From the NCBI RefSeq assembly GCF_030519655.1, contig NZ_JAUMIT010000001.1, positions 868,001 through 932,000 of the forward strand: a stretch of DNA of 64,000 nucleotides, in the 5' to 3' direction. The notes beneath the pieces are model-generated. The model did not search any database. It was not told the DNA's origin and saw only the letters and a list, made by a program, of their open reading frames with translations. Positions 30,009 to 45,485 of the stretch are shown here, in pieces. Position numbers and translations under genes: made by a program. The DNA is from Wenyingzhuangia gilva (GTDB taxonomy: Bacteria; Bacteroidota; Bacteroidia; Flavobacteriales; Flavobacteriaceae). Position 1 is the stretch's first letter. Each line of letters begins with the position of its first letter.

Positions 30009-30032
30009 TCAGAATTCTTATCTTCCATACTT

Positions 30033-31685
30033 ATGGAACATCAAGAAAGAGTATTGGCTCAAAAGTCTAAAAGAGCAATAGAAACAATGTACATTACCAT
30101 GTTGCATTTGTTTAACAGAGGACATTACAAACCTATGGGAGTGTCTGGACAATCATTAAGAAAAGCTTTATTAGAACTGCAACCAGAAATTTACGGATCT
30201 ATATCTGATTCTAAAAAGTTTGAATTGCAAGGTTTGTTATATGTTTTAGATCGTTTACCAGAAGGAATTGAAAGCTGTAGATTTATTAATTTAACGGCTA
30301 CCGAAGGTTTAGACGAAGGTCATTTTGCTAAAATAGTCCCTCCAAAAAGAAGACGAAATTGTTACAGAATTGATGGAGAACAAATGAATATTGAAATCAC
30401 ACGTGGGAGATCTGATATTTATGATGTTTTAACTCATTTAACATTTATGTATTTAGAATCACATAAGTTGTTGAATAGAATGTTTGTGGGGTATAAAAAT
30501 GAAATTTCTCACGAATGGGAAAAACTACAAGAATTAGTGCTTTCTAATGATGAAATTATTCAAGAAGATAGAGAAGTCCTTTTTGTTTATTTATCTAATC
30601 TTTTAGGAAGAAGTTTTGATGAGGTTAAAAGTGTCTACAAACAGTTATCAACCAAAAAAAATCCTGATAGATTTTTCCATATCATTTACGGTTTAGGAAC
30701 GCTAGCAGCAAAAGAAAAAATAGACAATCAATTCCGGTTGATTCGTTTTAGTGATAGTCTCATCGATCAAGTAGGGAAGCATGTTTATGGAAATATTTGG
30801 GCAAGAAATATAAAAACAGTTTTGTTTAACAAAGGAATGTTAAACAGGCCTATTCATATTATTAGTTCTAATATGCATTCTGTTTTAAATGTTTTGTATG
30901 CTAAAAAAGCACTTCAGTTTAAAAGTGAAGATGTTTTTACTTTATATAAAGAACTAAGCGAAATAAAAAGCAAAGAAAAGAGAGAAAAAGTATTACAATA
31001 TGCATTAAAAAATGGATTAACAGAGGTTGATGACACTTCTGGAGCCAATATAGATGTTCAAATTATAGATACTTCATTCATTAATCAAGAACCAAAAGAC
31101 AAAGAACCTGTAATTATAGTGATGGATTATGCTTTTGGAGAACAAGCTTATGAAACCATGGATGAATTGCTAAAACCCTATAATCATGGACTAGAAGATG
31201 CCATTAAGCTAGATGTAGAATCCGTTTCCATTATGGGAAAAGCTGGAATTTTATTTGGAGATAAAGGAGATGTGATGATTCCAACAGCCCATATTTTAGA
31301 AGGAACAGCCGATAACTATTTTTTTATCAATGAATTGGATGAAAATCAATTCAAAAAATTAAATTTGAACACTTTTACGGGGAACATGGTTACGGTGTTG
31401 GGGACATCGTTACAAAACAAGTCTATTCTTAACTATTTTAAAAGTACTAGTTGGAATACAGTTGGGTTAGAAATGGAAGGGGCTCATTATCAAAAAGCCA
31501 TTCAAATCGCCTCCCAAGTAAGAAATCATATTTCTAAAAAAGTAAAAGTAAGGTATGCTTACTATGCATCAGACAATCCTTTACATTCAGGAAGTACATT
31601 AGCTTCAGGAGGACTAGGAATGAAAGGTGTTAAACCAACATATGCCATTACCGAAGCTATTTTGGGACAAATTTTTAATAACTAA
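30033..31685 (+). CDS. DUF6909-like protein with nucleoside-phosphorylase-like C-terminal half
   Basis: This 550-residue cytoplasmic protein is a Bacteroidota-type protein of the DUF6909 group, as far as I recognise. The first 300 residues are helical and charged. The second half shows features of the PNP/AMP-nucleosidase fold: SVSIMGKAGILFGDKGDVMI, the substrate-type motif GLEMEGAHYQ and a late loop YYASDNPLHSGS. No catalytic activity is established. It could bind a nucleotide without cleaving it. It is followed nine bases later by a sugar transferase gene and then purD, all on the same strand. Confidence 0.65.
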   Translation: MEHQERVLAQKSKRAIETMYITMLHLFNRGHYKPMGVSGQSLRKALLELQPEIYGSISDSKKFELQGLLYVLDRLPEGIESCRFINLTATEGLDEGHFAKIVPPKRRRNCYRIDGEQMNIEITRGRSDIYDVLTHLTFMYLESHKLLNRMFVGYKNEISHEWEKLQELVLSNDEIIQEDREVLFVYLSNLLGRSFDEVKSVYKQLSTKKNPDRFFHIIYGLGTLAAKEKIDNQFRLIRFSDSLIDQVGKHVYGNIWARNIKTVLFNKGMLNRPIHIISSNMHSVLNVLYAKKALQFKSEDVFTLYKELSEIKSKEKREKVLQYALKNGLTEVDDTSGANIDVQIIDTSFINQEPKDKEPVIIVMDYAFGEQAYETMDELLKPYNHGLEDAIKLDVESVSIMGKAGILFGDKGDVMIPTAHILEGTADNYFFINELDENQFKKLNLNTFTGNMVTVLGTSLQNKSILNYFKSTSWNTVGLEMEGAHYQKAIQIASQVRNHISKKVKVRYAYYASDNPLHSGSTLASGGLGMKGVKPTYAITEAILGQIFNN

Positions 31686-31693
31686 CTCATTTC

Positions 31694-32269
31694 ATGTTTA
31701 AACGAATATTCGATATTCTATTTTCTTTTATAGTGGTAATAACAGTTTTAATTTGGTTAATTCCTGTATTTGCCATATTAATTTTTATCACCACAGGTGA
31801 AAAACCTTTCTTTTTTCAAAAAAGGGTTGGGCAGCACGGAAGAGAGTTTAATATTTTTAAATTGAGAACCATGAAAGGATTCCCTCCTGTAAACGATCCT
31901 TTGTTATCAGAAGAAGAAACGGTTAGAATTACTAAAATGGGAAAAATACTTCGTAAATATAGAATTGATGAATTTCCACAGTTCATTAATGTATTAATAG
32001 GGGATATGAGTATTGTGGGACCCAGACCTGAAAGACAGCAATTTTTAGATAATATTATTCGTGAAATCCCTAATTATGCAGAGTTACAGTGTTTAAAACC
32101 AGGAATTACATCTTTGGGGCAAATTCGTTTTGGTTATGCCGATACATTTGCACAAATGAAAATTAGAGCTAGGTACGATTTAGTTTATTTAGATAACCTA
32201 TCTTTGTGGACTGATATTAAAATCATCTTATATACCATTGTAGTGGTTATTAAAGGAAAAGGTAAATAA
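31694..32269 (+). CDS. Initiating sugar transferase (WcaJ/WbaP type, short form)
   Basis: This 191-residue protein has one N-terminal membrane helix (about residues 8-30), then the catalytic domain of bacterial sugar transferases that add the first sugar-phosphate to undecaprenyl phosphate. Motifs are GEKPFFFQKRVGQHGREFNI, FKLRTM, DEFPQFINVLIGDMSIVGP and RPERQQF. It lacks the long N-terminal region of WbaP, like PglC or the core form. It sits between the DUF6909 gene and purD, with three bases to purD. Possible product: O-antigen or glycoprotein glycan. Confidence 0.93.
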   Translation: MFKRIFDILFSFIVVITVLIWLIPVFAILIFITTGEKPFFFQKRVGQHGREFNIFKLRTMKGFPPVNDPLLSEEETVRITKMGKILRKYRIDEFPQFINVLIGDMSIVGPRPERQQFLDNIIREIPNYAELQCLKPGITSLGQIRFGYADTFAQMKIRARYDLVYLDNLSLWTDIKIILYTIVVVIKGKGK

Positions 32270-32272
32270 ATT

Positions 32273-33547
32273 ATGAATATTCTTATTTTAGGTTCTGGAG
32301 GTAGAGAACATGCATTTGCAAAAAAATTAGTAGAAAGTAAAAAATTGTCTAAGTTGTTTATAGCCCCAGGAAATGCTGGTACTGCTAAAATATCAAACAA
32401 TATTGCAATAGATCCAACAGATTTTCCTGCGGTAAAAAAAGTGGTTTTAGAAAACAACATCAACATGGTGGTTGTTGGACCAGAAGCTCCTTTGGTTGCG
32501 GGTGTTCATGATTATTTCTTGGCCGATGATGAATTAAAAAACATTCCGGTAATTGGACCTAAAAAGGATGGTGCTGAGTTAGAAGGTTCTAAAGAATTTT
32601 CAAAAAAATTCATGTTTAAACATGGAGTTCCTACAGCTAAATACGAAGCGTTTACAAAAGATACAGTTGCAGAGGGGCAAGCATTTTTAGAAACGTTAAA
32701 ACCACCATTTGTATTAAAAGCAGATGGATTGGCTGCGGGTAAAGGAGTGTTAATTATTGATAATTTACAAGAAGCTAAGGATGAATTGGCGGATATGCTA
32801 ACCAACGAAAAATTTGGTGCAGCTTCTTCTAAAGTCGTGATTGAAGAATATTTAGATGGAATTGAATTGTCTGTTTTTGTTTTAACAGATGGAAAAGGAT
32901 ACAAAGTATTGCCATCTGCCAAAGATTATAAAAGAATTGGAGAAGGAGATACTGGTTTAAACACTGGTGGTATGGGAGCAATTTCTCCAGTACCATTTGC
33001 CGATGAAGCCTTTATTAAAAAAGTAGAAGATAGAGTAGTGAAACCAACCGTTGAAGGTTTACAAAAAGATGGTATTGATTACCGTGGATTTATCTTTATA
33101 GGATTGATGAATATTGGAGGTGATCCTTACGTTATAGAGTATAATGTACGTATGGGAGATCCTGAAACAGAAGCAGTTTTACCACGTATTACTTCTGATT
33201 TATTAGATTTATTTGAAGGTGTGGCTACACAGACTTTAGCATCAAAATCTTATGAAGTAGATCCTAGAACAGCGACTACTGTTGTAGTTGTTGCAGGTGG
33301 ATATCCTGAAGCTTATGGAAAAGGAGACATTATCACAGGAACAGAAAACGAAGAAGAATCTATTGTTTATCATGCAGGGACTACTGTAAAAGACGGAAAC
33401 ATTGTTACAAACGGAGGTCGTGTATTGGCTGTTACTTCATTTGGAGAGGATATTCCTTCTGCTTTGGCAAAATCGTATAGAACGATTGATAAAATTTCTT
33501 TTGATAAAATGAATTATAGAAAAGACATTGGATTTGATTTGGTATAA
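32273..33547 (+). CDS. purD: Phosphoribosylamine-glycine ligase
   Basis: This 424-residue ATP-grasp enzyme (GARS) performs the second step of purine synthesis, joining glycine to phosphoribosylamine. The N-terminal pocket begins MNILILGSGGREHAFAKKL, followed by FIAPGNAGTA and the ATP-grasp region with KADGLAAGKGVLI. NVRMGDPETEAV occurs near the metal-binding site. Length is normal. Other pur genes are not adjacent, so it is isolated. It follows the sugar transferase by three bases and ends before a strong palindromic terminator. Confidence 0.97.
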   Translation: MNILILGSGGREHAFAKKLVESKKLSKLFIAPGNAGTAKISNNIAIDPTDFPAVKKVVLENNINMVVVGPEAPLVAGVHDYFLADDELKNIPVIGPKKDGAELEGSKEFSKKFMFKHGVPTAKYEAFTKDTVAEGQAFLETLKPPFVLKADGLAAGKGVLIIDNLQEAKDELADMLTNEKFGAASSKVVIEEYLDGIELSVFVLTDGKGYKVLPSAKDYKRIGEGDTGLNTGGMGAISPVPFADEAFIKKVEDRVVKPTVEGLQKDGIDYRGFIFIGLMNIGGDPYVIEYNVRMGDPETEAVLPRITSDLLDLFEGVATQTLASKSYEVDPRTATTVVVVAGGYPEAYGKGDIITGTENEEESIVYHAGTTVKDGNIVTNGGRVLAVTSFGEDIPSALAKSYRTIDKISFDKMNYRKDIGFDLV

Positions 33548-33567
33548 TTTCTAATCATAAACATATT

Positions 33568-33606
33568 AAAAATCGCTTTGTTTACTAGTAAACAAAGCGA
33601 TTTTTG
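33568..33606 (+). terminator. Terminator of purD
   Basis: A perfect palindrome (aatcgctttgtttact / agtaaacaaagcgatt) with A and T tails forms a stem of about 16 bp, followed by TTTTT. Confidence 0.9.
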
Positions 33607-33643
33607 ATTATTAAAGGTACTCTCCCGAGAGTTCTGGACACTA

Positions 33644-33684
33644 GAACACCTTTACTATTTAGGTCATCGAGCGGAGTCGAGATG
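33644..33684 (+). repeat. Copy 1 of an interspersed element (REP/MITE-like)
   Basis: The segment has GAACACC, then AGGTCATCGAGCGGAG, then a TCGAGATG tail. The 16-mer AGGTCATCGAGCGGAG recurs exactly, in inverted orientation, at 41645-41660. It lies in the noncoding space between purD and the glycosyltransferase gene. Confidence 0.75.
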
Positions 33685-33738
33685 CAATATTTTTAACTAT
33701 CACATTTAATTAGCATAGTACTTTTATTACTTTTAAGT

Positions 33739-34803
33739 ATGTCAAAAAAAATAGTTTCTAAAAAAATAATAGTTGCTCCATTAAACTGGGGTTGGGGTCA
33801 TGTTTCGCGTTGTATTCCAATAATAAAAGAAATTATCGTTTTGGGCTATATTCCTATTATTGCAAGTGATGGTGATGCTTTGTTATTTTTAAGAAAAGAA
33901 TTTCCAGATCTAGAAACTTTAGAATTAACAACTTACGGAATTCAATACCATCAATATTTTGTTGGTTCTATGTTTTTAAATATTCCAAAAATTGTCAATG
34001 GAATTATGAAGGAACAAGCCGTTATCAAAAAATATATCAATGATCATAAAAAGGAAATTGTTGGAATCATTTCCGATAATAGGTTAGGAGTCTATCATTC
34101 AGAAATACCATCTGTTTATATTACTCATCAACTAAATATTAAAGCAGGAATTTTATCAAAAAGCATTGATAAAATTCATCATTATTTTATCAAAAAACAC
34201 AAAGAATGTTGGGTTCCTGATGAAGAAAATAATTTGTATTCAGGAGATTTATCTAAAAACATCTCAAATTTAAATATTCAATACATTGGGGTTTTGTCTA
34301 GATTCAAAAAACAAGAAATTCCAATCAAATACAATTTATTAGTGTTGTTATCTGGAATAGAAGGACAAAGAAATGCTTTGGAAGATTTAATGTGTAAGGA
34401 ATTAAGATATTTTAAAGGTAAAGTATTGTTGGTAAGAGGAACTTTAAAAGTCTCTACAAAAGTTTTTTCATCCAATGTTGAGGTAATAGATTATTTATTA
34501 TCCGATGACTTAGAAAAAGTGATAAATGAATCTGAATTAGTAATCTCAAGATCTGGTTACAGTACCATTATGGATTTAATTACTTTAGAAAAGTCAGCTT
34601 TTTATATTCCTACACCGGGGCAAACAGAACAAGAGTATTTGGCGAAATATTTAAATAGTCAAAGTAAGGCTCGTTTTAGCACTCAAAAAGAGTTTAATAT
34701 TGATATGTTAAACAAAAAAAATGTTGAGGTATCTTTTAAAAAGACGTCTCAACATTGTATTTCTAAGTATTTAATAAAAGCATTTAAGCTTTCTCCAGTG
34801 TAA
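33739..34803 (+). CDS. MurG-like (GT28-type) glycosyltransferase
   Basis: This 354-residue protein has a GT-B fold. The N-terminal motif KIIVAPLNWGWGHVSRCIPI fits a glycosyltransferase 28-like family common in Bacteroidota, close to but not MurG. The C-terminal domain contains LVISRSGYSTIMDLI and IPTPGQTEQEYLAKYL, a typical UDP-sugar binding site. It should transfer a sugar from an NDP donor; the acceptor is unknown. Its last 20 bases overlap the convergent kinase gene. Confidence 0.85.
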   Translation: MSKKIVSKKIIVAPLNWGWGHVSRCIPIIKEIIVLGYIPIIASDGDALLFLRKEFPDLETLELTTYGIQYHQYFVGSMFLNIPKIVNGIMKEQAVIKKYINDHKKEIVGIISDNRLGVYHSEIPSVYITHQLNIKAGILSKSIDKIHHYFIKKHKECWVPDEENNLYSGDLSKNISNLNIQYIGVLSRFKKQEIPIKYNLLVLLSGIEGQRNALEDLMCKELRYFKGKVLLVRGTLKVSTKVFSSNVEVIDYLLSDDLEKVINESELVISRSGYSTIMDLITLEKSAFYIPTPGQTEQEYLAKYLNSQSKARFSTQKEFNIDMLNKKNVEVSFKKTSQHCISKYLIKAFKLSPV

Positions 34804-35824
34804 AGTAAAAAGTAGAGCCTACACCAATACTACTACTTACATCAATGGTTTGCTCATGAGCTTCTATAATGTGTTTTACAATAGACAATCCTAAACCAGA
34901 ACCTCCTTGATCTCTGGATCTACTTTTATCTACTCTGTAAAAACGTTCAAACAATCTTGGTACATCCGCTTCAGCAATTCCTTCACCGTTATCAGTCACC
35001 TTAATTACTACTTTTTCTTCGTCTTCATAATCTACCGATACAATGGTGGTTCCACCAACTTTTCCGTATTTAATGGAGTTCATTACAAGGTTGATTAAAA
35101 CTTGCTCAATTTTACTTTGATCGGCTAGTACAAACTCCGGAATGTCATAAAACTTATCTAACGTAAGTTTTATACTTCTTTTTTTTGCTTGCATTTCTAG
35201 CAAATCAAAAACTTTTTGAATGACTTTTATAATGTTAAAAGTATCTATTTTAAGTTTTAAATCATTGGTTTCTAGTTTGGTAATTAAATCTAAGTCTCCA
35301 ACAATTTCGCTCAGTCTTTCAATAGCAAGATTGGCTCTTTTTAAATATTTTTCTCTAATTTCTTTGTTTTCAGCAGCTCCTTCAATTAAAGTTAATAAGT
35401 AACCTTGTACTGTAAACAAAGGTGTTTTTAACTCGTGAGCAACATTTCCTAAAAAATCACGTCTGTAATTTTCACGGTAATTTAGCTTTGTGATTTCCCT
35501 TTTCTTTTTATAGGAATACTTCAGAATGTCTCTGGCTAAAAAGTCAAACTCATCAGCATTTACATTAATTCTAGAAATTCTTCTCTTTTTTAAAGTATTT
35601 ACTTGATTGTAAATTTTATCAATTCTATAATTAATGTAATTATTAATTCCGCTATTTAAAATAATAGTTAGAAGCACAAATAATACTCCAGACAAAATTA
35701 AAAGTGCATTTACATTTATCTCTTCTAATGTGTTGAACATAAAAAAGACTATGGCAGCATTGATACAAGCAACAAGTATAAAAGAGAGGAGAATTGAAAA
35801 AAGTAAGAAGTTTTTAATTTTCAT
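34784..35824 (-). CDS. PhoR-like sensor histidine kinase
   Basis: This 346-residue protein has two N-terminal helices (about residues 5-30 and 41-60) with only a short loop between. A HAMP-like linker, a HisKA motif (NVAHELKTPLFTVQGYL) and an HATPase follow (NLVMNSIKYGK, VTDNGEGIAEADVPRLFERF, GGSGLGLSIVKHI). No PAS or large periplasmic sensor is present, as in PhoR. The start overlaps the end of the regulator gene by 11 bases. Together with it, and next to a TonB receptor with PhoP-like direct repeats, it is a likely phosphate-limitation sensor. Confidence 0.9.
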   Translation of the reverse strand: MKIKNFLLFSILLSFILVACINAAIVFFMFNTLEEINVNALLILSGVLFVLLTIILNSGINNYINYRIDKIYNQVNTLKKRRISRINVNADEFDFLARDILKYSYKKKREITKLNYRENYRRDFLGNVAHELKTPLFTVQGYLLTLIEGAAENKEIREKYLKRANLAIERLSEIVGDLDLITKLETNDLKLKIDTFNIIKVIQKVFDLLEMQAKKRSIKLTLDKFYDIPEFVLADQSKIEQVLINLVMNSIKYGKVGGTTIVSVDYEDEEKVVIKVTDNGEGIAEADVPRLFERFYRVDKSRSRDQGGSGLGLSIVKHIIEAHEQTIDVSSSIGVGSTFYFTLEKA

Positions 35825-36503
35825 GTAAAATGAACTTATATCCTACTCCTTTAACGGTTTTAAAGTAATCATCCCCTATTTTTTCACGAAGTTTTCTAAT
35901 GTGTACATCAATAGTTCTATCTCCAACAACTACATCACTACCCCAAACTTTTTTCATGATAGATTCTCGGTTAAATACCTTACCTGGTTTTGAAGTTAAT
36001 AAAGAAAAAAGTTCGAATTCTTTTCTGGGTAACACAATTTTATCACCATCTTTAATAATTAAGTATTCATCACGATCTATAGTAATTCCACCTAATTCGG
36101 TATTGTTGTTACCTCCTTCTTCTTTAATTCTTCTTAATAAAGATTTAATCTTACTGATTAACAATTTTGGCTTAATTGGCTTTGTAATGTAGTCGTCAGC
36201 ACCGGCATCAAACCCTGCAACTTGACTATAATCTTCGCCTCTAGCAGTAAAAAAAGAGATAATTACATCACCCATATCTGGAAGTTCTCTAATTTTTTCA
36301 CAAGCTTCAACACCATCCATTTCAGGCATCATTACATCTAATAGAATTAAATGAGGTTGTACTTTTTTTGCCTGACTTACAGCCTCTAAGCCGTTCTCTG
36401 CAGTATAAATATCATACCCTTCTTTTTTAAGATTGTAACCAACAATTTCTAAGATATCTGGTTCATCGTCTACTAAAAGTATTTTAATCTGATTTGTTTC
36501 CAT
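35814..36503 (-). CDS. OmpR/PhoB-type response regulator
   Basis: This 229-residue protein has a receiver domain (residues 1-120, ILLVDDEPD, phosphoacceptor Asp in LLDVMMPEMDG, Lys in YITKPIKPK) and a winged-helix output domain (LLTSKPGKVFNRE, DRTIDVHIRKLREKIGD). The ATG at 36503 (METNQIKIL) is preferred over an upstream in-frame ATG at 36566. The latter would include a -7 box and PhoP-like sequence inside the gene. It overlaps its kinase by 11 bases. The best match by context is PhoB/PhoP, the phosphate-response regulator. Confidence 0.93.
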   Translation of the reverse strand: METNQIKILLVDDEPDILEIVGYNLKKEGYDIYTAENGLEAVSQAKKVQPHLILLDVMMPEMDGVEACEKIRELPDMGDVIISFFTARGEDYSQVAGFDAGADDYITKPIKPKLLISKIKSLLRRIKEEGGNNNTELGGITIDRDEYLIIKDGDKIVLPRKEFELFSLLTSKPGKVFNRESIMKKVWGSDVVVGDRTIDVHIRKLREKIGDDYFKTVKGVGYKFILHEN

Positions 36504-36524
36504 TATATGTGTTATTAATCGTAG

Positions 36525-36532
36525 CAAAATTA
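36525..36532 (-). promoter_or_regulatory. TAnnTTTG -7 box of the response regulator
   Basis: The minus strand reads TAATTTTG 22 bases before the regulator ATG. A TTAACA pair (36560-36576) lies about 27-44 bases further upstream, where an activator overlapping the -33 region would bind. Confidence 0.5.
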
Positions 36533-36559
36533 ATCTTTTACAAGATACAAAAGAGTTTG

Positions 36560-36576
36560 TTAACAATCATTTAACA
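36560..36576 (+). promoter_or_regulatory. PhoP/PhoB-like operator pair A
   Basis: TTAACA occurs at 36560-36565 and again at 36571-36576, an exact 11-base period. B. subtilis PhoP binds TT(A/C/T)A(C/T)A repeats with about 5-base spacers and E. coli PhoB uses 11-bp-period direct repeats. The pair is close to the regulator promoter, so it may be for autoregulation. Confidence 0.65.
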
Positions 36577-36609
36577 GTAAGCTGAACTTAACGTAATCAT
36601 GGGTGCTTG

Positions 36610-36626
36610 TTAACAATATTTTAACA
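36610..36626 (+). promoter_or_regulatory. PhoP/PhoB-like operator pair B
   Basis: TTAACA occurs at 36610-36615 and 36621-36626, with the same 11-base period and the same flank (TTGTTAACAAT) as pair A, exactly 50 bases further on. It lies about 80 bases before the TonB receptor ATG and could activate it. Confidence 0.68.
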
Positions 36627-36704
36627 TAAAGGTAATGATATGTTGCCCTCTTTAAGGTATTATTTATAGACTTTTGCACCGCTTTAACAAATATAGCATT
36701 GATA

Positions 36705-39437
36705 ATGAGAAATTTATTAGTTACATTTTTTACTTTGATGAGTGTAGTTACGTTTGCACAGTCAAAAGGAACCATTTCAGGAAAAATACAAGATAAGGAC
36801 ATGGGCTTAGAACCTTTGCCGTTTGTAAGTATTTATGATAGTAAAGATAATACGGTAGGAACTACCTCTGATTTTGATGGAAATTACATTATAAAATTAA
36901 GTCCAGGAGTACACACGCTTGTTTTTGAGTTTGTAGGATACGAAACTGTTAAAAAACAAGTAACAGTAAAAGCTAATGCAACGCAAAATATTACAATTGT
37001 AATGTCTTCTGTAGCTGATGCTTTAGATGCTGTAGTATTAACCGCTGTTATAAATAAAGAAAGTGAAGAGGCATTGGTTGAAGTGCAAAAAGAAGCTGTA
37101 GAAATTGTTACTGCAATTGGAGCGGAAGAACTTTCTAACAAAGGAGTAAGTGATGCCGAGGGTGCTGTTGTAAAAACAGCTGGTGTTACAAAACAACAAG
37201 GAGTTAAAAATGTTTTTGTACGTGGGTTAGGAGATAGATATAATTCAACGACATATAACGGATTGCCTTTGCCTTCTGATGATCCTGAATATAAAAATAT
37301 ATCTTTAGATTATTTTTCAACGGATGTAATTCAGAATGTAGGGATAAATAAAGCCTTTACATCAAATATTTTTGGAGATGTTGGTGGAGCAAATATTGAT
37401 ATATCTTCTAAGATTTTATCGGGAAATAAAGATTTATCTGTTGGTTTTTCTGTTGGAGGGAATAGCCAAACAATAACAAAATCTGATTTCTTAACAATAG
37501 ATGGTACAAACACTATAGGTATTCAAGAAAATAGCTTTAAAATTACTGATTTAGGAGTTTATAATTTTAAAAATAATATTGATCCAAACAGTCAAAACTT
37601 TCAATTAAATAAATCAATTTCTGTTGCAGGAGGAAAAAAATATAAATTAGATAATGGAGATAAATTTAGTTTTTTTGCCGTAGCATCTCTGTCATCTGAT
37701 TATAGGTATCAAGAAGGAGTTATTAGAAATTCAACAACTGATGGGAGAGTTAATCAAGATCAAGAAGTAGATAAGTATAATAGAAATGCTTCTCAATTAT
37801 TAATGGCTAGTTTAAAATATGATTTTAACTCTTCAAACAATTTAAAATATAATACTTTATTAATTCATGCTAATAGTCAGGCGGTTTCTGATGCTTATGG
37901 TAAAAATGCTCCTGAAGATCCTGCTGATTTAGAATTTTTAAGAAGACAACAAGTAAACGACAATATGTTGTTGGTAAATCAATTGTTGGGAGATTTTTAC
38001 ATTTCTGATAAAAGTGATTTAAAATTAGGACTAGCATATAATTATGTTTCAGGAAATGAACCGGATAGACGTTCTAATAGATACTTAATAAGAGGAGGTC
38101 AAACAAGTCCTAACCCTAGTAGCGCAGGATATCATAGTAGGTTTTATACCAATTTAAAAGAAAATGATATTGCTTTCACTTCTAATATTGATTTTAAGTT
38201 TTTAGATAAAGAAAAAGATGGTCTAAAAAGCAAATTAGATTTAGGGTTTGATGCAAGATACACTGTAAGAAATTTTGAAGCTGTTGATTTTCAGCACAAT
38301 GTACAAGGTTTGTATTCAGTAGATATAAATAATGCTGATGATTTTTTTAATCAACAAAATCTAGATAACGGAAGTTTTGGGTTTCAAACAGGAAGAGGTA
38401 GATTAGATCCTTTTAAACCTTTTACCTATGATGGGAAGCGATTTGTGTTTGGACAGTTTGCAAAATATTTAATTAAAATATCAGAAAACTTTACAATTAA
38501 TCCCGGATTAAGAGGAGAGTTGGTTGATTTATCTGTAGAGTATAATACAAATATTGCAAATAGTGATAATACAGGTGTTCCCACAATAAGTAAATACTAC
38601 GTATTACCTTCTTTAATTACAAAGTTTAGCGCTACTGAAGATTTAATATTTAGGGCGGTAGCAAGTAAAACATATACATTACCTCAGTTTAAAGAAATAG
38701 CACCGTTTAAGTATCAAGATATCAGCTTTGCAAGTCAAGGTAATCCAGATTTATTACCATCCGATAATTATAATGTGGATTTAAAAGGAGAGTATTATTT
38801 TGGAGATGCTGAATTTGTTTCTTTAACAGGGTTTTATAAAATGATTAAAAATCCAATCTCTCGAGTTGATTTAATTGGTGCGGCAGGTACTTTAAGTTAT
38901 ACAAATTTAGGTGATGAAGCTATTTTGTTTGGTGCTGAATTTGAATTTAAAAAGAAATTATATTCATTTTTAGGTAAAGATGATTTTGAAAATAAGTTAA
39001 GTTTTGGTTTAAATGCTTCTTACTTATATTCTGAGGTAAATTTAGATACAAATTCAAATTCAAATTTTACAAATAGTACTACCGAATTAGAAGGTGCTAC
39101 ACCAGTATTAGTAAATACAGATTTAACTTTAAATAGTAGTTTATTTGGAGGAGAGATAACTTCTGCCGTTGTGTTTAATTATTTCAGTGATAGAGTTTAT
39201 TCTATAGGAACACAGGGATATAATAATATTGTAGAAAAATCTATTACAGGTTTAGATTTTGTTTCTTCATACAAATTAGGTAATTATTCTGTAAAATTAA
39301 AAGTAAAGAATATTTTAAACCCACCTGTACAGTTAGTTAGATTAGGTAGAGATGGCGCTATAAATCCTAATGATGTTGTTGTTTCTGATTTTAAAAGAGG
39401 TTTAGATGCTAGTATATCTATTGGATACTCATTTTAA
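36705..39437 (+). CDS. TonB-dependent receptor, probable phosphate-response outer-membrane transporter
   Basis: This roughly 910-residue outer-membrane receptor has a signal peptide (ending VVTFAQ). A carboxypeptidase-like domain follows (about residues 20-105, DFDGNYIIKLSPGVHTLVFE), then a plug (VKTAGVTKQQGVKNVFVRGL) and a long barrel. The plug has the LGDRYNSTTYNGLPLPS sequence typical of one flavobacterial receptor type. ATG 36705 is preferred over TTG 36699. Two TTAACA pairs upstream and a PhoBR-like system next to it suggest it imports a phosphorus compound or siderophore-like ligand under phosphate control. The ligand is not known. Confidence 0.9.
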   Translation: MRNLLVTFFTLMSVVTFAQSKGTISGKIQDKDMGLEPLPFVSIYDSKDNTVGTTSDFDGNYIIKLSPGVHTLVFEFVGYETVKKQVTVKANATQNITIVMSSVADALDAVVLTAVINKESEEALVEVQKEAVEIVTAIGAEELSNKGVSDAEGAVVKTAGVTKQQGVKNVFVRGLGDRYNSTTYNGLPLPSDDPEYKNISLDYFSTDVIQNVGINKAFTSNIFGDVGGANIDISSKILSGNKDLSVGFSVGGNSQTITKSDFLTIDGTNTIGIQENSFKITDLGVYNFKNNIDPNSQNFQLNKSISVAGGKKYKLDNGDKFSFFAVASLSSDYRYQEGVIRNSTTDGRVNQDQEVDKYNRNASQLLMASLKYDFNSSNNLKYNTLLIHANSQAVSDAYGKNAPEDPADLEFLRRQQVNDNMLLVNQLLGDFYISDKSDLKLGLAYNYVSGNEPDRRSNRYLIRGGQTSPNPSSAGYHSRFYTNLKENDIAFTSNIDFKFLDKEKDGLKSKLDLGFDARYTVRNFEAVDFQHNVQGLYSVDINNADDFFNQQNLDNGSFGFQTGRGRLDPFKPFTYDGKRFVFGQFAKYLIKISENFTINPGLRGELVDLSVEYNTNIANSDNTGVPTISKYYVLPSLITKFSATEDLIFRAVASKTYTLPQFKEIAPFKYQDISFASQGNPDLLPSDNYNVDLKGEYYFGDAEFVSLTGFYKMIKNPISRVDLIGAAGTLSYTNLGDEAILFGAEFEFKKKLYSFLGKDDFENKLSFGLNASYLYSEVNLDTNSNSNFTNSTTELEGATPVLVNTDLTLNSSLFGGEITSAVVFNYFSDRVYSIGTQGYNNIVEKSITGLDFVSSYKLGNYSVKLKVKNILNPPVQLVRLGRDGAINPNDVVVSDFKRGLDASISIGYSF

Positions 39438-39457
39438 TTGAAAAAATTAATAAGAAG

Positions 39458-39493
39458 ACATAGAAGCCACTGTATTTACAGTGGCTTCTATGT
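39458..39493 (+). terminator. Strong hairpin after the TonB receptor gene
   Basis: A 17-bp perfect stem (acatagaagccactgta / tacagtggcttctatgt) has a tiny loop. No T tract follows, so it may stabilise or attenuate rather than end the transcript. The TTAACA repeats of the next gene start right after it. Confidence 0.6.
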
Positions 39494-39510
39494 TTAACAA
39501 TAAGTTTACA
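39494..39510 (+). promoter_or_regulatory. PhoP/PhoB-like operator pair C
   Basis: TTAACAATAAG (39494) is followed at 11 bases by TTTACAATAAG (39505). The unit is almost duplicated. It lies directly after the hairpin and before a second, longer array. Confidence 0.55.
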
Positions 39511-39525
39511 ATAAGCAATAAATAG

Positions 39526-39563
39526 TTAACAAGAACTTAATAGGTTCTTAACCTAGTTTAACG
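39526..39563 (+). promoter_or_regulatory. PhoP/PhoB-like tandem operator array D
   Basis: TTAACA (39526), TTAATA (39537), TTAACC (39548) and TTAACG (39558) follow at periods of 11, 11 and 10 bases. The array ends about 12 bases before a TACTTTG -7 box (39576-39582). This is the position of Pho boxes in E. coli promoters, where the box replaces the -35 element. Confidence 0.65.
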
Positions 39564-39626
39564 CTATTCTGTCTTTACTTTGTGGCAATAAAATTTGAAA
39601 CAAAAACAAAACAAAAATTTATTAAG

Positions 39627-40787
39627 ATGAAAAAATTAATTTTATCAATGTTAGCTATTGCAGCTATCACTTTTACAAGTTGTACTTCTGATGATGATGA
39701 CAATAATGGAGGTTCAAACAAAAATGGGCAATTAGCAGGAGCTATTACTTCTAATTTAACTTTAGATGCAAGTGTTGAATATACTTTAACTGGGGCTGTA
39801 TTTGTTAAAGATGGGGTAACTTTAACAATACCAGCAGGGACGACTATTAAAGCTTTAGCAGGTGGTACAGACGTTTATTTATTAGTTGAAAAAGGAGGTA
39901 AGATTGTTGCTGATGGAGATGCTTCAAACCCAATTATTTTTACTTCTAATGCAACTAGTCCAGCAGCTGGAGACTGGGGAGGTTTAATCATTAACGGTAA
40001 AGCTCCTATTTCTAGACCTTCAGGTCAGTCTAGTAACTCTGCAACAGAGGTTAACTCTGGATTATTTTATGGAGGTGATGTAGAAAATGATAATTCAGGA
40101 ATCTTAGATTATGTAATTTTAGAGTACACTGGTGCAAGAATCGATGGAGATGCTGAGCATAATGGTTTAACTTTAAATGGAGTTGGAAGTGGAACTACTT
40201 TATCAAATATTGCTATTTTATATGGTGATGATGATGCTATTGAGTTTTTTGGGGGTTCTGTAAATGCATCGAACATTTTAGCTGTAAACGCTAAAGATGA
40301 TATGTTTGACTTTACTCAAGGATATACAGGAACTTGTACAAACTTATATGGAATTAGAGAAGCTGGTTTTACTGCTGTAACTTCTGATCCACGTGGTATT
40401 GAAGCTGATGGAAACTTAGATGGAAACTCTCCTTCAGATATTGCACAATCTGACTTTACTGTAAACGGATTAACTATTGAGCATAGTGGAGAAGTAGAAA
40501 TGTCTGATGCTATTAAAGTAAGAAGAGGTGCTACTGCTACAATTACAAATGCAATTGTTAAATCTGGAAATGCACAAGCGGTATTTGGAGACATTGTAGA
40601 TTTACAAGACTCTAAGAGTGATGCAACAGACGATACTATTATAACTGTAGTTATTGACCCAGCTAATGGAGTAGATGTTACTGATGTAAAAAATACTGTT
40701 TCTGCAGGAGCTACTATTACTGCAACTTCTGGAACTACTGGAGGAGCTGATTTTTCTGTATTCTCTTGGACAGGTTACACTAAGTAA
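39627..40787 (+). CDS. Exported surface-type lipoprotein with beta-solenoid repeats
   Basis: This 386-residue protein has a lipoprotein signal with FTSC and then an acidic SDDDDNN stretch. That is a lipoprotein export signal for cell-surface display in Bacteroidota. The rest contains many short Gly/Asn-rich strands (GAVFVKDGVTLTIPAGTTIKA, DAIEFFGGSVNASNILAVNA), as in a beta-helix. ATG 39627 is preferred over GTG 39582, which falls inside the -7 box. It directly follows the TonB receptor and carries a PhoP-like array, so both may act as a receptor-lipoprotein pair. It could bind phosphate, phosphoester or other ligand. Function is unproven. Confidence 0.75.
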   Translation: MKKLILSMLAIAAITFTSCTSDDDDNNGGSNKNGQLAGAITSNLTLDASVEYTLTGAVFVKDGVTLTIPAGTTIKALAGGTDVYLLVEKGGKIVADGDASNPIIFTSNATSPAAGDWGGLIINGKAPISRPSGQSSNSATEVNSGLFYGGDVENDNSGILDYVILEYTGARIDGDAEHNGLTLNGVGSGTTLSNIAILYGDDDAIEFFGGSVNASNILAVNAKDDMFDFTQGYTGTCTNLYGIREAGFTAVTSDPRGIEADGNLDGNSPSDIAQSDFTVNGLTIEHSGEVEMSDAIKVRRGATATITNAIVKSGNAQAVFGDIVDLQDSKSDATDDTIITVVIDPANGVDVTDVKNTVSAGATITATSGTTGGADFSVFSWTGYTK

Positions 40788-40810
40788 CCCTTACAGATAA
40801 AAAATATTTA

Positions 40811-40840
40811 AAACCCATCTCGAAAGAGATGGGTTTTTTT
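40811..40840 (+). terminator. Terminator after the surface lipoprotein
   Basis: An 11-bp stem (aaacccatctc / gagatgggttt) with a GAAA tetraloop is followed by seven T residues. Confidence 0.9.
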
Positions 40841-40876
40841 ATTCCCGTTACTTTTTTAACTTTAGGAATAAAAGCT

Positions 40877-41587
40877 ATGAATTTTAAAACCCAAAAAGAA
40901 AACATTCTCTTTTTAGATATTGAAACCGTTCCCTTGTATAAAGAATTTTCTGAGGTTCCGGATATTGAAAAAGAATTGTTTGCCAATAAAACTGCTTATA
41001 AAAGAGGTGAAGAAATAAGTGCAGAAGCGTTTTATAATAATGCTGGAATTTGGGCAGAGTTTGGTAAAATTGTCTGTATTTCTGTAGGGTATTTTGTCAA
41101 TCAAGAATTAAGAATTACTTCTTTTGCTTCTAAAGATGAAAAAGAAATTTTAAGGGGCTTTAAAAATCTTTTAGAAACGCATTTTAACAAGCCACAACAC
41201 GTTTTGTGTGGTCATAACGCTAAAGAGTTCGATTTTCCGTTTATTGCCCGTAGAATGATTGTACACGGGTTAGATTTACCAATTAAATTAAATTTATTCG
41301 GAAAAAAACCATGGGAAATTCCACATTTAGATACTTTGGAGTTGTGGAAGTTTGGTGATTATAAACATTACACGTCCTTAAAATTACTCACCCATTTATT
41401 GGGCGTTCCTAGTCCAAAAGGAGATATAGATGGTAGTCAAGTAGGAACTGTTTTTTATCAAGAAGATGACTTACCTAGAATTGTTCGTTATTGTGAACAA
41501 GATGTGTTGGCTTTGGCTAGGGTGTATTTGCGTTTTAACAATGAAGAAATTGTGAAAGATGAAAATGTGGTTTTTGTGGCTAAATAA
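40877..41587 (+). CDS. Predicted PolB-like 3'-5' exonuclease
   Basis: This 236-residue protein has an RNase H-like exonuclease fold of the DEDD type. FLDIETVP carries the first Asp-Glu pair near residue 13. CGHNAKEFDFPFIARRM follows in the middle, and YCEQDVLALARVY near the end carries the last Asp. It fits the predicted 3'-5' exonucleases related to PolB. The start is ATG 40877: the frame reaches back to 40829, but that would run through the terminator loop. The nucleic acid substrate is unknown. It stands alone. Confidence 0.88.
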   Translation: MNFKTQKENILFLDIETVPLYKEFSEVPDIEKELFANKTAYKRGEEISAEAFYNNAGIWAEFGKIVCISVGYFVNQELRITSFASKDEKEILRGFKNLLETHFNKPQHVLCGHNAKEFDFPFIARRMIVHGLDLPIKLNLFGKKPWEIPHLDTLELWKFGDYKHYTSLKLLTHLLGVPSPKGDIDGSQVGTVFYQEDDLPRIVRYCEQDVLALARVYLRFNNEEIVKDENVVFVAK

Positions 41588-41639
41588 TTTATAGGAAAGC
41601 TTTTCTCGGAATAAGTTCTCTAATTTAAAAGTATCTCAT

Positions 41640-41698
41640 CTAGTCTCCGCTCGATGACCTGTTTTGAGATCAAGGGTGTTCGAGCGAAGACGAGAACT
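41640..41698 (-). repeat. Copy 2 of the interspersed element, inverted
   Basis: On the minus strand it reads AGGTCATCGAGCGGAG exactly as in copy 1. It also carries CTCGAACACC against CTAGAACACC at similar spacing. Its two ends form an imperfect inverted repeat (agtctccgctcga and tcgagcgaagacg), so it can fold into a hairpin, unlike copy 1. Confidence 0.75.
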
Positions 41699-41702
41699 TG
41701 TA

Positions 41703-41747
41703 AAACATAAAAAGTCTAAACTGGTATAGTTTAGACTTTTTATGTTT
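41703..41747. terminator. Large perfect hairpin, probable terminator
   Basis: Aaacataaaaagtctaaact (41703-41722) pairs perfectly with 41728-41747 around a GGTAT loop. The stem is 20 bp and holds an A/T-rich end. It lies 116 bases after the exonuclease stop and could end either strand's transcript. Confidence 0.7.
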
Positions 41748-41961
41748 ATTGGTTTCAGATTAGGGTTTAAAACCCTGCAATTTGATTGCAGTACTTTAGT
41801 GATATAAAAATGTTATATCCTTAGGTTTTTTATAAATGAGCTTCAGTCAATTTTAAATTTTATAATTCTGATATATAAGGGGGATTTTAATCCCTAGTGA
41901 AACAAACCTCTGTACTTCTAGTGCAGAGTGATTTAGTTGATGATGTAAAAAATGGTATTGT

Positions 41962-43026
41962 TTACGATTCTGTATTTTTTTCTAACAAAGCATTCCATCC
42001 TTGAGCAGTTAACGGCACAGATTGATTGGCTCCACGGGTAATTAAGTTCATTCCGCTAGCTTCATCAGTCATGTGACCAATCACTGTTAAATGTGGATTT
42101 CCTTTAATTTTATCAAAATCACTTTGAGCAATGGTAAATAACAATTCATAATCTTCACCACCACTTAAAGCAACGGTTGTACTGTTTAAATCAAACTCTT
42201 CACAAGTAGAAATTACTTGAGGATCTAAAGGAAGTTTGTCTTCATAAATATTACATCCTACTTTAGATTGTTGACAAAGGTGAATGGTTTCCGAGGACAA
42301 TCCATCAGAAATATCAATCATTGATGTCGGAATCACCTCTAAATCATTTAAAATTCTAACAATATCTTTTCTAGCTTCTGGCTTTAATTGGCGTTCAATT
42401 AAATATGTGTAAGCATCTAAATCTGGTTGATTGTTAGGGTCTACTTCAAAAACTTGCTTTTCACGTTCTAACACCTGAAAACCTAAATAAGCCGCTCCTA
42501 AATCTCCAGTAACTACTAACAAATCATTTTCTTTGGCAGTATTACGGTATGTAATTTTTTCATCCTCAGCATGTCCAATAGCAGTTACGCTAATTAACAA
42601 TCCCTTGGTTGATGAGGTAGTATCTCCTCCAATTAAATCTACATTATATTTTTCACAAGCCAATTGAATTCCGCTATACAATTCTTCTACAGTTTCTAAA
42701 GGAAATCTGTTAGACAAAGCAATAGATATGGTAATTTGACTCGCCTCGGCATTCATGGCATATACATCAGATAAATTTACCATCACTGCTTTGTATCCTA
42801 GATGCTTTAATGGCATGTACGATAAATTAAAGTGAACTCCTTCTACTAACAAGTCAGTAGTCACTAGGGTTTTTAAGCCTTTGGCATCTAAAACAGCACA
42901 GTCATCACCCACACCTTTAATGGTTGAGTCTTGTTGAATGGTAAAATATTGTGTTAAGTGAGAAATTAAACCAAATTCTCCTAGACTTGCAATGTCTGTT
43001 TTTTGAGGCGTTTTATCTTCTAACAT
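41962..43026 (-). CDS. thiL: Thiamine-monophosphate kinase
   Basis: This 354-residue AIR-synthase-fold kinase converts thiamine monophosphate to thiamine diphosphate with ATP. Motifs are the N-terminal GEFGLISHLTQYF, the metal-binding GVGDDCAVLD, TTDLLVEGVHFNL and VNLSDVYAMNAEA, plus GGDTTSSTKGLLI for substrate. ISDGLSSETIHLC comes later. Length is normal. Other thi genes are not near, which is normal for thiL. It has its own TATCTTTG box about 68 bases upstream. Confidence 0.96.
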   Translation of the reverse strand: MLEDKTPQKTDIASLGEFGLISHLTQYFTIQQDSTIKGVGDDCAVLDAKGLKTLVTTDLLVEGVHFNLSYMPLKHLGYKAVMVNLSDVYAMNAEASQITISIALSNRFPLETVEELYSGIQLACEKYNVDLIGGDTTSSTKGLLISVTAIGHAEDEKITYRNTAKENDLLVVTGDLGAAYLGFQVLEREKQVFEVDPNNQPDLDAYTYLIERQLKPEARKDIVRILNDLEVIPTSMIDISDGLSSETIHLCQQSKVGCNIYEDKLPLDPQVISTCEEFDLNSTTVALSGGEDYELLFTIAQSDFDKIKGNPHLTVIGHMTDEASGMNLITRGANQSVPLTAQGWNALLEKNTES

Positions 43027-43093
43027 ATGCTTTTAATTGAAAGGTTTGTGTATTTAAACTACTAATAGTATATAAGAAATTACTAATAATTTG

Positions 43094-43101
43094 CAAAGAT
43101 A
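43094..43101 (-). promoter_or_regulatory. TAnnTTTG -7 box of thiL
   Basis: The minus strand reads TATCTTTG, matching the consensus, 67 bases before the thiL ATG. Confidence 0.6.
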
Positions 43102-43177
43102 CATTTTACATTGAGGAAGTCTATTGTATAATAAATATTATTCATATCCCTTATGATAAAAATCAGTTTAAAAATGG

Positions 43178-43185
43178 TAAATTTG
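43178..43185 (+). promoter_or_regulatory. TAnnTTTG -7 box of the suf genes
   Basis: TAAATTTG lies 29 bases before the iscA-family ATG, fitting the consensus. Confidence 0.6.
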
Positions 43186-43214
43186 CAAACGTTTAGATTT
43201 AATCTATTTAAGTT

Positions 43215-43544
43215 ATGATAAAAGTATCAGATATAGCTAAGAAAAAAGTAGTAGAATTAATGGCCGATGATGGTTATGATGCTGCTAATGATTTTGTTAG
43301 AGTAGGAGTTAAGAGTGGAGGATGTTCAGGATTATCGTACGATTTAAAGTTTGATAAAGAACAACAAGAAGGTGATAAAGTTTTTGAAGACAATGGCGTT
43401 AAAATTATTGTAGATAAAAAAAGTTTCCTTTATTTAGTTGGAACTACTTTAGAATATTCTGGCGGATTGAACGGAACTGGATTTGTTTTTAACAATCCAA
43501 ACGCCAACAGAACTTGTGGTTGTGGAGAGAGTTTTAGTTTGTAA
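43215..43544 (+). CDS. sufA: HesB/IscA-family iron-sulfur assembly protein (SufA-like)
   Basis: This 109-residue A-type carrier has the three conserved cysteines: one in GGCSGLSYDL (around residue 38) and a CGC pair near the end (CGCGESFSL). It receives or carries Fe-S clusters for the SUF machinery. It begins the suf group and is followed by a decayed gene and then sufB. IscA and SufA are not separable by sequence alone here; the context gives sufA. The start is the ATG at 43215. Confidence 0.9.
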   Translation: MIKVSDIAKKKVVELMADDGYDAANDFVRVGVKSGGCSGLSYDLKFDKEQQEGDKVFEDNGVKIIVDKKSFLYLVGTTLEYSGGLNGTGFVFNNPNANRTCGCGESFSL

Positions 43545-43563
43545 AGTTAAAAGTTCTTAAAGT

Positions 43564-43931
43564 ATGGCAAAGTTTAATTCTTTTGAAGAGATAATTTCTT
43601 GGCAAAAAGCAAGATAATTAAATATTGAAATATATAAGACAACAAACAATAATCTGATTTCAAAAGATTACGAATTAAGAAATCAGATAAGAAGAGCAAG
43701 TATATCAATTTCTTCAAACATAGCAGAAGGTTTGAAAGACAAACAACAAAAGAATTCATTAGGTTTTTATATATAGCCAAAGCCTCTGCTGGAGAAGTAA
43801 GGTCACAGTTGTATTTAGCTAATGATTTAGAATATATTAATAGAGAAGAATTTGAGATTTTAAAAACAAAGGTAAACGAAGTGTCAAAGTTGATTAGTGG
43901 ATTGTTAAAATATTTACATTCGACTTTATAA
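43564..43931 (+). pseudogene. Pseudogene of a four-helix-bundle (IVP/S23) protein
   Basis: The frame starts MAKFNSFEEIISWQKAR and is cut by an in-frame TAA at 43615-43617 where a GAA would fit. It continues as [11 protein letters not shown] and [15 protein letters not shown]. Near 43730, one T seems lost (GGTTTGAAAGAC where GGTTTTGAAAGA is expected). After that point the other frame continues with [20 protein letters not shown] to a TAA at 43931. These segments match the four-helix-bundle intervening-sequence protein family. So one stop and one frameshift separate an otherwise whole gene of about 122 residues. Confidence 0.85.
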
Positions 43932-43960
43932 ACTTTTTACTTTTAAACATTAAAACTAAA

Positions 43961-45406
43961 ATGAAATACACAGAAGACGACTTAAGGGAAGAATTAAAAA
44001 CTAAAGAGTATGAATATGGATTTTATACTTATTTAGATGCAGAAACTTTTCCTAAAGGACTGAATGAAGATGTAATTAGAGCAATTTCTTTAAAAAAGGA
44101 AGAGCCAGAATGGATGACGGAATGGCGTTTAGATGCTTTCCGCAAATGGGAAGCTATGGCGGAGCCTGAATGGGCAAATGTACGTTATGAAAAACCAGAT
44201 TTTCAAAACATCAGTTATTATTCAGCACCTAAAAAAGCAGATCCTAATAAAAGCTTAGACGATGTAGATCCTGAGTTGTTAGAAATGTATAAAAAATTAG
44301 GGATTTCTGTTGATGAGCAAAAGAAATTACAAAACATTGCAGTAGATATTGTAGTAGATTCAGTTTCAGTTGCAACTACTTTTAAAAAGACCCTAAATGA
44401 AAAAGGAATTATATTTTGTCCAATATCTGAAGCTATTAAAGAGCATCCAGAATTGGTGAAAAAATACATGGGATCGGTAGTTCCTAAAACAGATAATTTT
44501 TATGCGGCACTAAATTCAGCAGTTTTTACTGATGGATCTTTTTGTTACATTCCAAAAGGAGTAACATGTCCAATGGAATTATCTACCTATTTCCGTATCA
44601 ATGAAGGTGGAACAGGACAGTTTGAGCGTACTTTGGTAGTTGCCGATGAAGGTTCTTTTGTAAGTTATTTAGAGGGATGTACAGCACCTAGTAGAGATGA
44701 AAATCAGTTGCATGCAGCAGTTGTTGAATTGGTTGCCTTAGATGATGCTGAAATTAAATATTCTACTGTGCAAAACTGGTTCCCAGGTGATGCAAAAGGT
44801 AAAGGTGGAGTTTACAACTTTGTAACCAAAAGAGCGGTTTGTGAAAAGAATGCAAAAGTATCTTGGACACAGGTAGAAACAGGTTCTGCAGTTACTTGGA
44901 AATATCCATCTTGTATTTTAAAAGGAGATAATTCTACAGGGGAATTTTATTCTATAGCCGTAACTAATAATTATCAGCAAGCAGATACGGGTACAAAAAT
45001 GATTCATTTAGGAAATAATACTAGAAGTACTATTATTTCTAAAGGGATTTCTGCCGGTCATTCTCACAACAGTTACCGTGGATTGGTAAAAGTAAATTCT
45101 AAAGCGGAAAATGCTCGAAACTTTTCACAATGTGATTCTTTATTAATGGGTGATTTATGTGGTGCACATACGTTCCCATACATAGAAGTTAAAAACAAAT
45201 CAGCACAAATAGAACACGAGGCTACAACAAGTAAAATTGGAGAAGACCAATTGTTTTACTGTAACCAACGTGGTATAGATACTGAAAAAGCCATTGCATT
45301 AATTGTAAACGGATTTAGTAAAGATGTGTTGAACAAATTACCAATGGAGTTTGCTGTAGAAGCACAAAAACTATTAGAAATTAGTTTAGAAGGATCTGTA
45401 GGGTAA
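43961..45406 (+). CDS. sufB: Fe-S cluster assembly protein SufB
   Basis: This 481-residue protein is the core scaffold of the SufBCD complex, which builds clusters on SufB. It has the conserved beta-helix with [12 protein letters not shown] and the [20 protein letters not shown] block. The N-terminal region [20 protein letters not shown] is typical. Length matches bacterial SufB. It lies 29 bases after the decayed four-helix-bundle gene and 79 bases before sufC. The ATP step is supplied by SufC. Confidence 0.97.
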
Positions 45407-45485
45407 GCACTAAGAGTTAAGAATTAACAATTACGAATTAAACGGCTTAACAGCCAATAGCTAACAGCTAAAAGCATAATATAAG
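45407..45485. repeat. Micro-repeat-filled spacer between sufB and sufC
   Basis: The 79-base gap is built of short units: TTAAGAATTAACAATTACGA and AACAGCCAATAGCTAACAGC. Similar T/A and AGC-rich units are common in Bacteroidota spacers. No gene or terminator is seen, so the operon is probably kept. Confidence 0.5.

Follow-up and report, generated by a model that had tools for sequence, protein, structure and literature searches.

Tandem TTAACA repeats beside a PhoB-like regulator gene of Wenyingzhuangia gilva as probable PHO-box-type operators, with similar arrays across Flavobacteriales

In Escherichia coli the PHO box lies close upstream of the -10 element, and Bacillus subtilis PhoP reads repeats of the form TT(A/C/T)A(C/T)A. 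The E. coli box is described as two 11-nt direct repeat units with the core CTGTCAT (PMC4415409). For Bacteroidota we found no description of a PHO box in the open-licence literature searched, the closest published systems being those of Riemerella anatipestifer and Flavobacterium johnsoniae. DNA affinity purification sequencing (DAP-seq) of R. anatipestifer PhoP yielded 583 peaks, 579 of them accompanied by a motif whose most conserved nucleotides are TTTAACA (motif figure legend, PMC9603813), and in electrophoretic mobility shift assays the protein bound the upstream regions of both phoPR and a TonB-dependent receptor gene (PMC9603813). In F. johnsoniae, phosphate depletion induced the glycosyltransferase (5.42), phoB (3.06), TonB-dependent transporter (TBDT; 8.02) and lipoprotein (9.91) genes of the phoBR cluster (Table 1 of PMC8115612, values of the FC column, taken here as log2), and three TBDTs are named there as induced under Pi-depletion only. 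The main text of that protein catalogue gives no operator, and the words motif, promoter, upstream and Pho box are absent from it. Here we describe tandem TTAACA repeats of 11-base period beside a phoB-like gene in a 64,000-nucleotide stretch of the Wenyingzhuangia gilva genome (contig NZ_JAUMIT010000001.1, positions 868,001 to 932,000 of the forward strand; the window). Comparative sequence evidence makes it very probable that these are PHO-box-type operators which the adjacent PhoB-like regulator would bind under the control of phosphate.

The repeats lie in the intergenic region between the divergent phoB-like and TBDT genes, where the following features are found (window coordinates throughout):

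35814..36503, minus strand: PhoB-like response regulator (Response_reg and Trans_reg_C domains), the proposed binder of the arrays
36560..36576, plus strand: pair A, an exact TTAACA-N5-TTAACA, closest to phoB
36588..36593, plus strand: extra half-site TTAACG, 22 bases ahead of 36610
36610..36637, plus strand: pair B, an exact TTAACA-N5-TTAACA, then a degenerate third half-site GTAATG at 36632, period 11
36708..39437, plus strand: TBDT (PF00593, PF07715, PF13715), probable counterpart of Fjoh_0545

TTAACA begins at 36560, 36571, 36610 and 36621. As a preliminary description of this DNA had stated, the two pairs share a common flank, TTGTTAACAAT, and lie 50 bases apart, and its judgment that two strict pairs within 70 bases are unlikely by chance agrees with our rough estimate (not a computed value) of about 1e-4. 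It had overlooked the half-site at 36588, which is TTAAC in 6/6 species of the genus; its observation of the repeats as a whole is partly confirmed. The copy at 36588 starts 17 bases after the second unit of pair A, about half a turn out of register. The pair B triple is the top-scoring triple of the region (p=0.002, 500 shuffles). A TTAAGG near 36652 was dismissed as an in-register half-site, its phase being off by two bases. When the TBDT upstream regions of six species of the genus were compared, TTAAC copies were found at offsets 0, 11, 28, 50 and 61 with pair B kept across all six, and at offset 11 (the second copy of pair A) TTAAT replaces TTAAC in two species. This footprint is conserved despite divergence of the TBDT itself, which in the other five species is only 43-51% identical to that of the window.

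The locus matches the phosphate-induced F. johnsoniae phoBR cluster (PMC8115612). Two further genes of it lie at lower coordinates than the phoB-like gene:

33739..34803, plus strand: glycosyltransferase (Pfam PF04101, 3.5e-13), probable counterpart of phosphate-induced Fjoh_0541
34784..35824, minus strand: PhoR-like sensor kinase (HisKA and HATPase domains)

The order of PhoR, PhoB (about 70% identical), TBDT (34-38%) and lipoprotein (43-45%) is shared with five Flavobacterium loci, the TBDT and lipoprotein genes standing at equivalent positions; the glycosyltransferase is present in 3/5 of these stretches, the other two possibly ending before it. The convergent glycosyltransferase and PhoR-like genes of the window overlap by 20 bases (34784-34803).

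The array is not confined to the genus. Of 40 genomes sampled from the order, 31 contain a single match to the window PhoB at E<=1e-60 and nine contain none. Thirty loci (our own, 24 non-tandem and five tandem) were scored with a half-site matrix; an earlier round had covered 25 of the 30, five being omitted for want of a start codon, and the final scoring took all 30 by another start rule. One locus, L331, was counted as non-tandem and has no neighboring open reading frame (ORF) within its stretch. An 11-base triple exceeded 500 shuffles at p<=0.05 in 21 of the 24 non-tandem phoB upstream regions (18 at p<=0.01), spread over eight families, whereas none of the five tandem loci, our negative control, had a significant triple; some of these locus pairs are near relatives, and a few of the genomes are possibly from Flavobacterium, which would mean overlap with the held-out test given below. 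The mean triple score of the 24 loci was 13.9 at period 11 versus 3.2-5.2 at nine other periods, and 11 was the best period in 19/24 non-tandem and 1/5 tandem loci. The array pointed away from phoB in 19 of the 21 significant loci and towards it in two. The array thus recurs beside phoB in most of the relatives sampled, usually facing a known or possible phosphate-uptake gene: a TBDT in 14 of the 24 loci (by tblastn), an FII-type lipoprotein in three (34-42% identical), PstS in one (TIGR02136, 299 bits against a cut-off of 206.6), a porin-like protein in two (one just above and one below the Pfam cut-offs) and a membrane protein without a family in two (L344 and L353). At L348, where the array was not significant, the facing ORF is an unknown lipoprotein-like one with an FII-like gene behind it, and the facing gene of one locus was not seen. 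The L344 and L353 proteins (365 and 380 aa) span the membrane several times, contain a ANDSIQTIGTFIASN stretch and face phoB across the array. Neither matched Pfam, and L344, the only one searched further, had no NCBIfam or PDB match; by eye each is a candidate phosphate transporter, which we leave unnamed.

For the half-site matrix, whose consensus is TTAAC[A], we drew only on the window's genus, taking 48 half-sites preselected for the form TTAA[CT] and a partner 11 or 22 bases off. The matrix was then tested on 37 held-out promoters of Flavobacterium, all belonging to probable orthologues of genes that are induced by phosphate depletion (FII 10, FIII 9, TBDT 5, phytase-TBDT 10, PhoX 3); the controls were 115 promoters taken from one Flavobacterium genome (sixteen 20-kb stretches). 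The sample comprised 10 genomes among the best 80 of 509 loci (the F. johnsoniae type strain is not in these 80), the phoB-TBDT stretch being taken from five of the ten. FII, FIII and PhoX were assigned by similarity and gene place rather than by tree; 19/30 lipoprotein loci were used and the 11 unassigned ones excluded, and of the three PhoX loci one scored below the family cut-off and two just above. With three half-sites the area under the curve (AUC) was 0.931 at period 11 and 0.55-0.83 at the other periods from 7 to 16, the highest of these being period 14. The mean percentile of the triple among the controls was 0.97 for FII, 0.97 for FIII, 0.98 for TBDT and 0.91 for phytase promoters.

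Placement of the arrays relative to the promoter followed the same period. The -7 boxes given here are matches to the consensus TANNTTTG, which we take to be of the Bacteroidota type, and not mapped start sites:

36525..36532, minus strand: putative phoB -7 box TAATTTTG, which fits TANNTTTG; CAAANNTA on the plus strand in six species (by eye)
36669..36676, plus strand: putative TBDT -7 box GACTTTTG, one mismatch to TANNTTTG, 37 bases from 36632
39575..39582, plus strand: putative lipoprotein -7 box TTACTTTG, one mismatch to TANNTTTG, 27 bases from the half-site at 39548

In the 19 significant loci with the array pointing away from phoB (the two towards-phoB loci were excluded), we searched for such boxes 8-60 bases 3' of the third half-site, allowing one mismatch and requiring the final TTG. 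Sixteen boxes were found in 15/19 promoters, four having none, and 13 of the 16 (in 13/19 promoters) stood 14-16, 25-27, 36-38 or 47-49 bases from the third half-site, the register that the two boxes of the window at 37 and 27 bases share. Shuffled tails gave a mean of 1.3 promoters in register and 0/2000 reached 13; the register had been picked after part of the data was viewed (13 chosen loci and eight chosen promoters). Other phases gave 0-2 promoters, except for the two adjoining this register, with 12 and 13. We presume this to be the geometry of an activator array ending at the would-be -33 element, as in PHO boxes.

These results suggest the following scheme. The operator would consist of tandem half-sites with a consensus near TTAACA, degenerate to NTAAY, at an 11-base period. 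At low phosphate PhoR would phosphorylate PhoB, and phosphorylated PhoB would then fill the array head-to-tail and recruit RNA polymerase to the -7 box in the same helical register, turning on the TBDT and, from a separate promoter, the lipoprotein. Being the pair closest to phoB and roughly half a turn from the following copy, pair A may act for phoB itself; the spacing that we count between it and the phoB -7 box departs from the 15+11n rule, and this role is therefore a guess. Induction in F. johnsoniae and DNA binding by Riemerella PhoP are taken from the papers cited; what we infer for W. gilva is that PhoB binds the arrays, is phosphorylated and acts as an activator, and that phosphate controls it.

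The second set of repeats stands before the lipoprotein gene:

39458..39493, strand not assigned: 16-bp hairpin, a likely terminator, between the TBDT and lipoprotein genes
39494..39510, plus strand: pair C, degenerate TTAACA-N5-TTTACA (one mismatch)
39526..39553, plus strand: conserved core of array D, TTAACA-N5-TTAATA-N5-TTAACC
39558..39563, plus strand: fourth copy of array D, TTAACG, 10 bases after 39548, not conserved
39627..40787, plus strand: lipoprotein without a family match in Pfam, probable counterpart of Fjoh_0546 (FII)

The preliminary description had given pair C as a repeat at 39494/39505 and array D as four copies. A repeat does stand at 39494/39505, its second unit, TTTACA, being one mismatch from strict. 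All four positions of array D are likewise occupied (TTAACA at 39526, TTAATA at 39537, TTAACC at 39548 and TTAACG at 39558), though just the first matches strictly and the fourth breaks the 11-base spacing. Pair C is retained in six species of the genus, save for TTAACG as the first unit in L037 and TTCACA as the second in L039, and the copies at 39526, 39537 and 39548 are retained in the six as degenerate repeats. The copy at 39558 was seen among the six in the window species only, plus a TTAAT version in L036. The exact triple TTAAC-N6-TTAAY-N6-TTAAC, a pattern derived from array D itself, occurs once per genome in six genomes of the genus, each time behind the TBDT gene; it is absent from the seventh, an 85% complete genome in which no TBDT match was found. 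Because of the hairpin that separates the TBDT gene from these repeats, the lipoprotein probably has its own promoter. Five relatives carry hairpins of other sequence at the same junction (by eye).

A number of results weigh against a PhoB-bound, phosphate-controlled operator, and the first of these concern simple counts. A genome scan for strict pairs clustering at phosphate genes, which the preliminary description had proposed, fails: the 3.35-Mb genome has three exact TTAACA-N5-TTAACA (backward control pattern, two), two of them at this locus and the third at C30:60963 between two ORFs without an evident phosphate role (by eye). Exact pairs are not clearly enriched genome-wide and, with just three of them, the strict scan was dropped as proof of a regulon. 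Degenerate patterns are no more numerous than expected, with 97 triples versus 123 for the backward control in our own genome (two mismatches), 46 versus 56 in seven genus genomes (one mismatch), and 50 pairs versus 39.5 expected in the window (two mismatches; 9/100 shuffles reach 50). Such counts are what chance TTAACA repeats in AT-rich DNA would give. That the repeats are noise is nevertheless extremely unlikely given their conservation in six species and the outcome of the held-out and order-wide tests, the latter including two promoters of 40-42% G+C, unless both tests share an artefact. The signal is one of position and conservation and not of raw counts, and the operator is degenerate, visible only through the matrix plus the 11-base period.

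The promoter tests also had weak points. With two half-sites the AUC was 0.857 at period 11 and 0.846 at period 9, and the period is therefore sharp for triples only. The three weakly assigned PhoX promoters reached a mean percentile of only 0.70 (our own genome had no match to the PhoX family PF05787), and, promoters of orthologues being dependent on one another, the p-values here (1.7e-15 for the held-out test) overstate the significance. Across the family, lipoprotein homologues gave a weak 7/29 at p<=0.05, and phytase-TBDT promoters of the genus gave 3/5, with all best matches on the opposite strand. In the window species a TBDT gene followed by a phytase gene (C28:111174-114998), the probable counterpart of phosphate-induced Fjoh_1368/1367, has one TTAAC copy upstream that is kept in the genus.

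A third set of observations concerns the identity of the regulator. At C1:955500-971600, about 24-40 kb past the window end, a gene encoding Reg_prop, Y_Y_Y and AraC-type helix-turn-helix domains (L095) is succeeded by two SusC-type TBDT genes, of which the first has a SusD gene after it. Some 138-175 bases ahead of the start of each SusC gene stands a similar TTAAC array of 11-base period. Two alkaline phosphatase genes are found downstream. The arrays were set aside as independent support for phosphate control owing to the AraC-type domain gene just upstream, which is about 54 kb from our locus; the SusC locus is possibly a second phosphate locus or possibly carries an AraC-type operator. 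A TTTAC/TTAAC/TTAGC array of 11-base period that resembles the SusC arrays also stands 5' of a 789-aa TBDT gene (C23:197696-197723). Period plus half-site alone therefore does not name PhoB, and the arrays could be operators of another OmpR-type regulator or of an AraC-type hybrid regulator reading 11-base direct repeats, with PhoB an incidental neighbor. The authors of the Riemerella study likened the PhoP motif to that of E. coli ArcA, and of the candidate targets behind the 583 PhoP peaks only 50 were altered in the phoP deletion (PMC9603813). We consider another regulator quite unlikely. The array stays beside phoB in eight families though the facing gene varies, it was not found in the five tandem loci, and the core of the Riemerella PhoP motif agrees with it (PMC9603813). 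By eye there is no AraC-type gene among the ORFs listed for window positions 30000-46000, only part of which went through the family scan. Since the order genomes with a close PhoB match have just one, the Riemerella protein and the window PhoB are, judging from copy number, probably orthologues.

The array could also belong to PhoB with the signal sensed in this organism being other than phosphate. The PhoR-like kinase scored 236.7 bits against TIGR02966 (cut-off 334.2), and the PhoB-like regulator 206.8 bits against TIGR02154 (cut-off 296.2) and 198 bits against NF053854, the Bacteroides PhoB family (cut-off 270); with scores under the NCBIfam cut-offs we label the regulator PhoB-like. In F. 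johnsoniae phoR was not significantly induced (0.76; PMC8115612), deletion of phoPR in Riemerella raised pstS eight-fold, unlike in other Gram-negatives (PMC5399024), and Mycobacterium tuberculosis PhoPR is said to be unresponsive to phosphate (PMC9603813). However, the F. johnsoniae counterparts rise when phosphate is depleted (PMC8115612), Riemerella PhoPR is reported to be upregulated in phosphate starvation (PMC9603813), and in one genome the array faces the above-cut-off PstS gene, and thus a signal other than phosphate seems unlikely. The Pho operator suggested in the preliminary description is supported by synteny, the genus footprints, the held-out test, the order-wide test with its tandem control and the DAP-seq core.

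A broader proposition, to which we give slightly better than even chances, is that Flavobacteriales share one modular PhoB system, a phased TTAACA array beside phoB that points away from it and steps about 15+11n bases to the -7 box, with the phosphate genes behind it (TBDT, lipoprotein, PstS, porin, perhaps an uncharacterized membrane transporter) swapped in evolution. If so, phosphate-uptake genes of types not yet known could be predicted from the array, and the 'ArcA-like' PhoP motif of Riemerella would be a PHO box, a simpler meaning for the published motif of a pathogen. The rule (TTAACA-like half-sites every 11 bases, an in-register -7 box, orientation away from phoB) would aid regulon prediction in uncultured genomes and offers a function for unnamed genes adjoining phoB. 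The scavenging of phosphate is an important activity of Flavobacteria in soil and at plant roots.

How does the locus compare with the known systems? It resembles the E. coli PHO box in its head-to-tail repeats of 11-base period beside phoB and 5' of phosphate genes and in the fixed placement of the arrays close before the -7 element, much as the E. coli box stands relative to its -10. It differs in a half-site near TTAACA rather than CTGTCAT, in having at least three units, in a -7 box presumably of the Bacteroidota type and in an array directed mostly away from phoB, towards the divergent gene. The B. subtilis PhoP repeats, likened here by description only, have the same half-site and spacing in an unrelated phylum and promoter type. 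The F. johnsoniae phoBR cluster (PUSIV) has the same gene content, except that an OprP gene, Fjoh_0542 in the numbering of Table 1, lies between its glycosyltransferase and PhoR genes (PMC8115612) and none lies there in the window. The Riemerella PhoP motif has the same core and the same kinds of bound sites, its own phoPR and a TonB-dependent receptor; its authors tie the protein to aerotolerance and pathogenicity, and the available parts of their paper describe neither an 11-base array nor a -7 register (PMC9603813). Through that published motif the PHO box is a kind of element already known, and within the literature searched its order-wide definition, orientation and phasing appear new.

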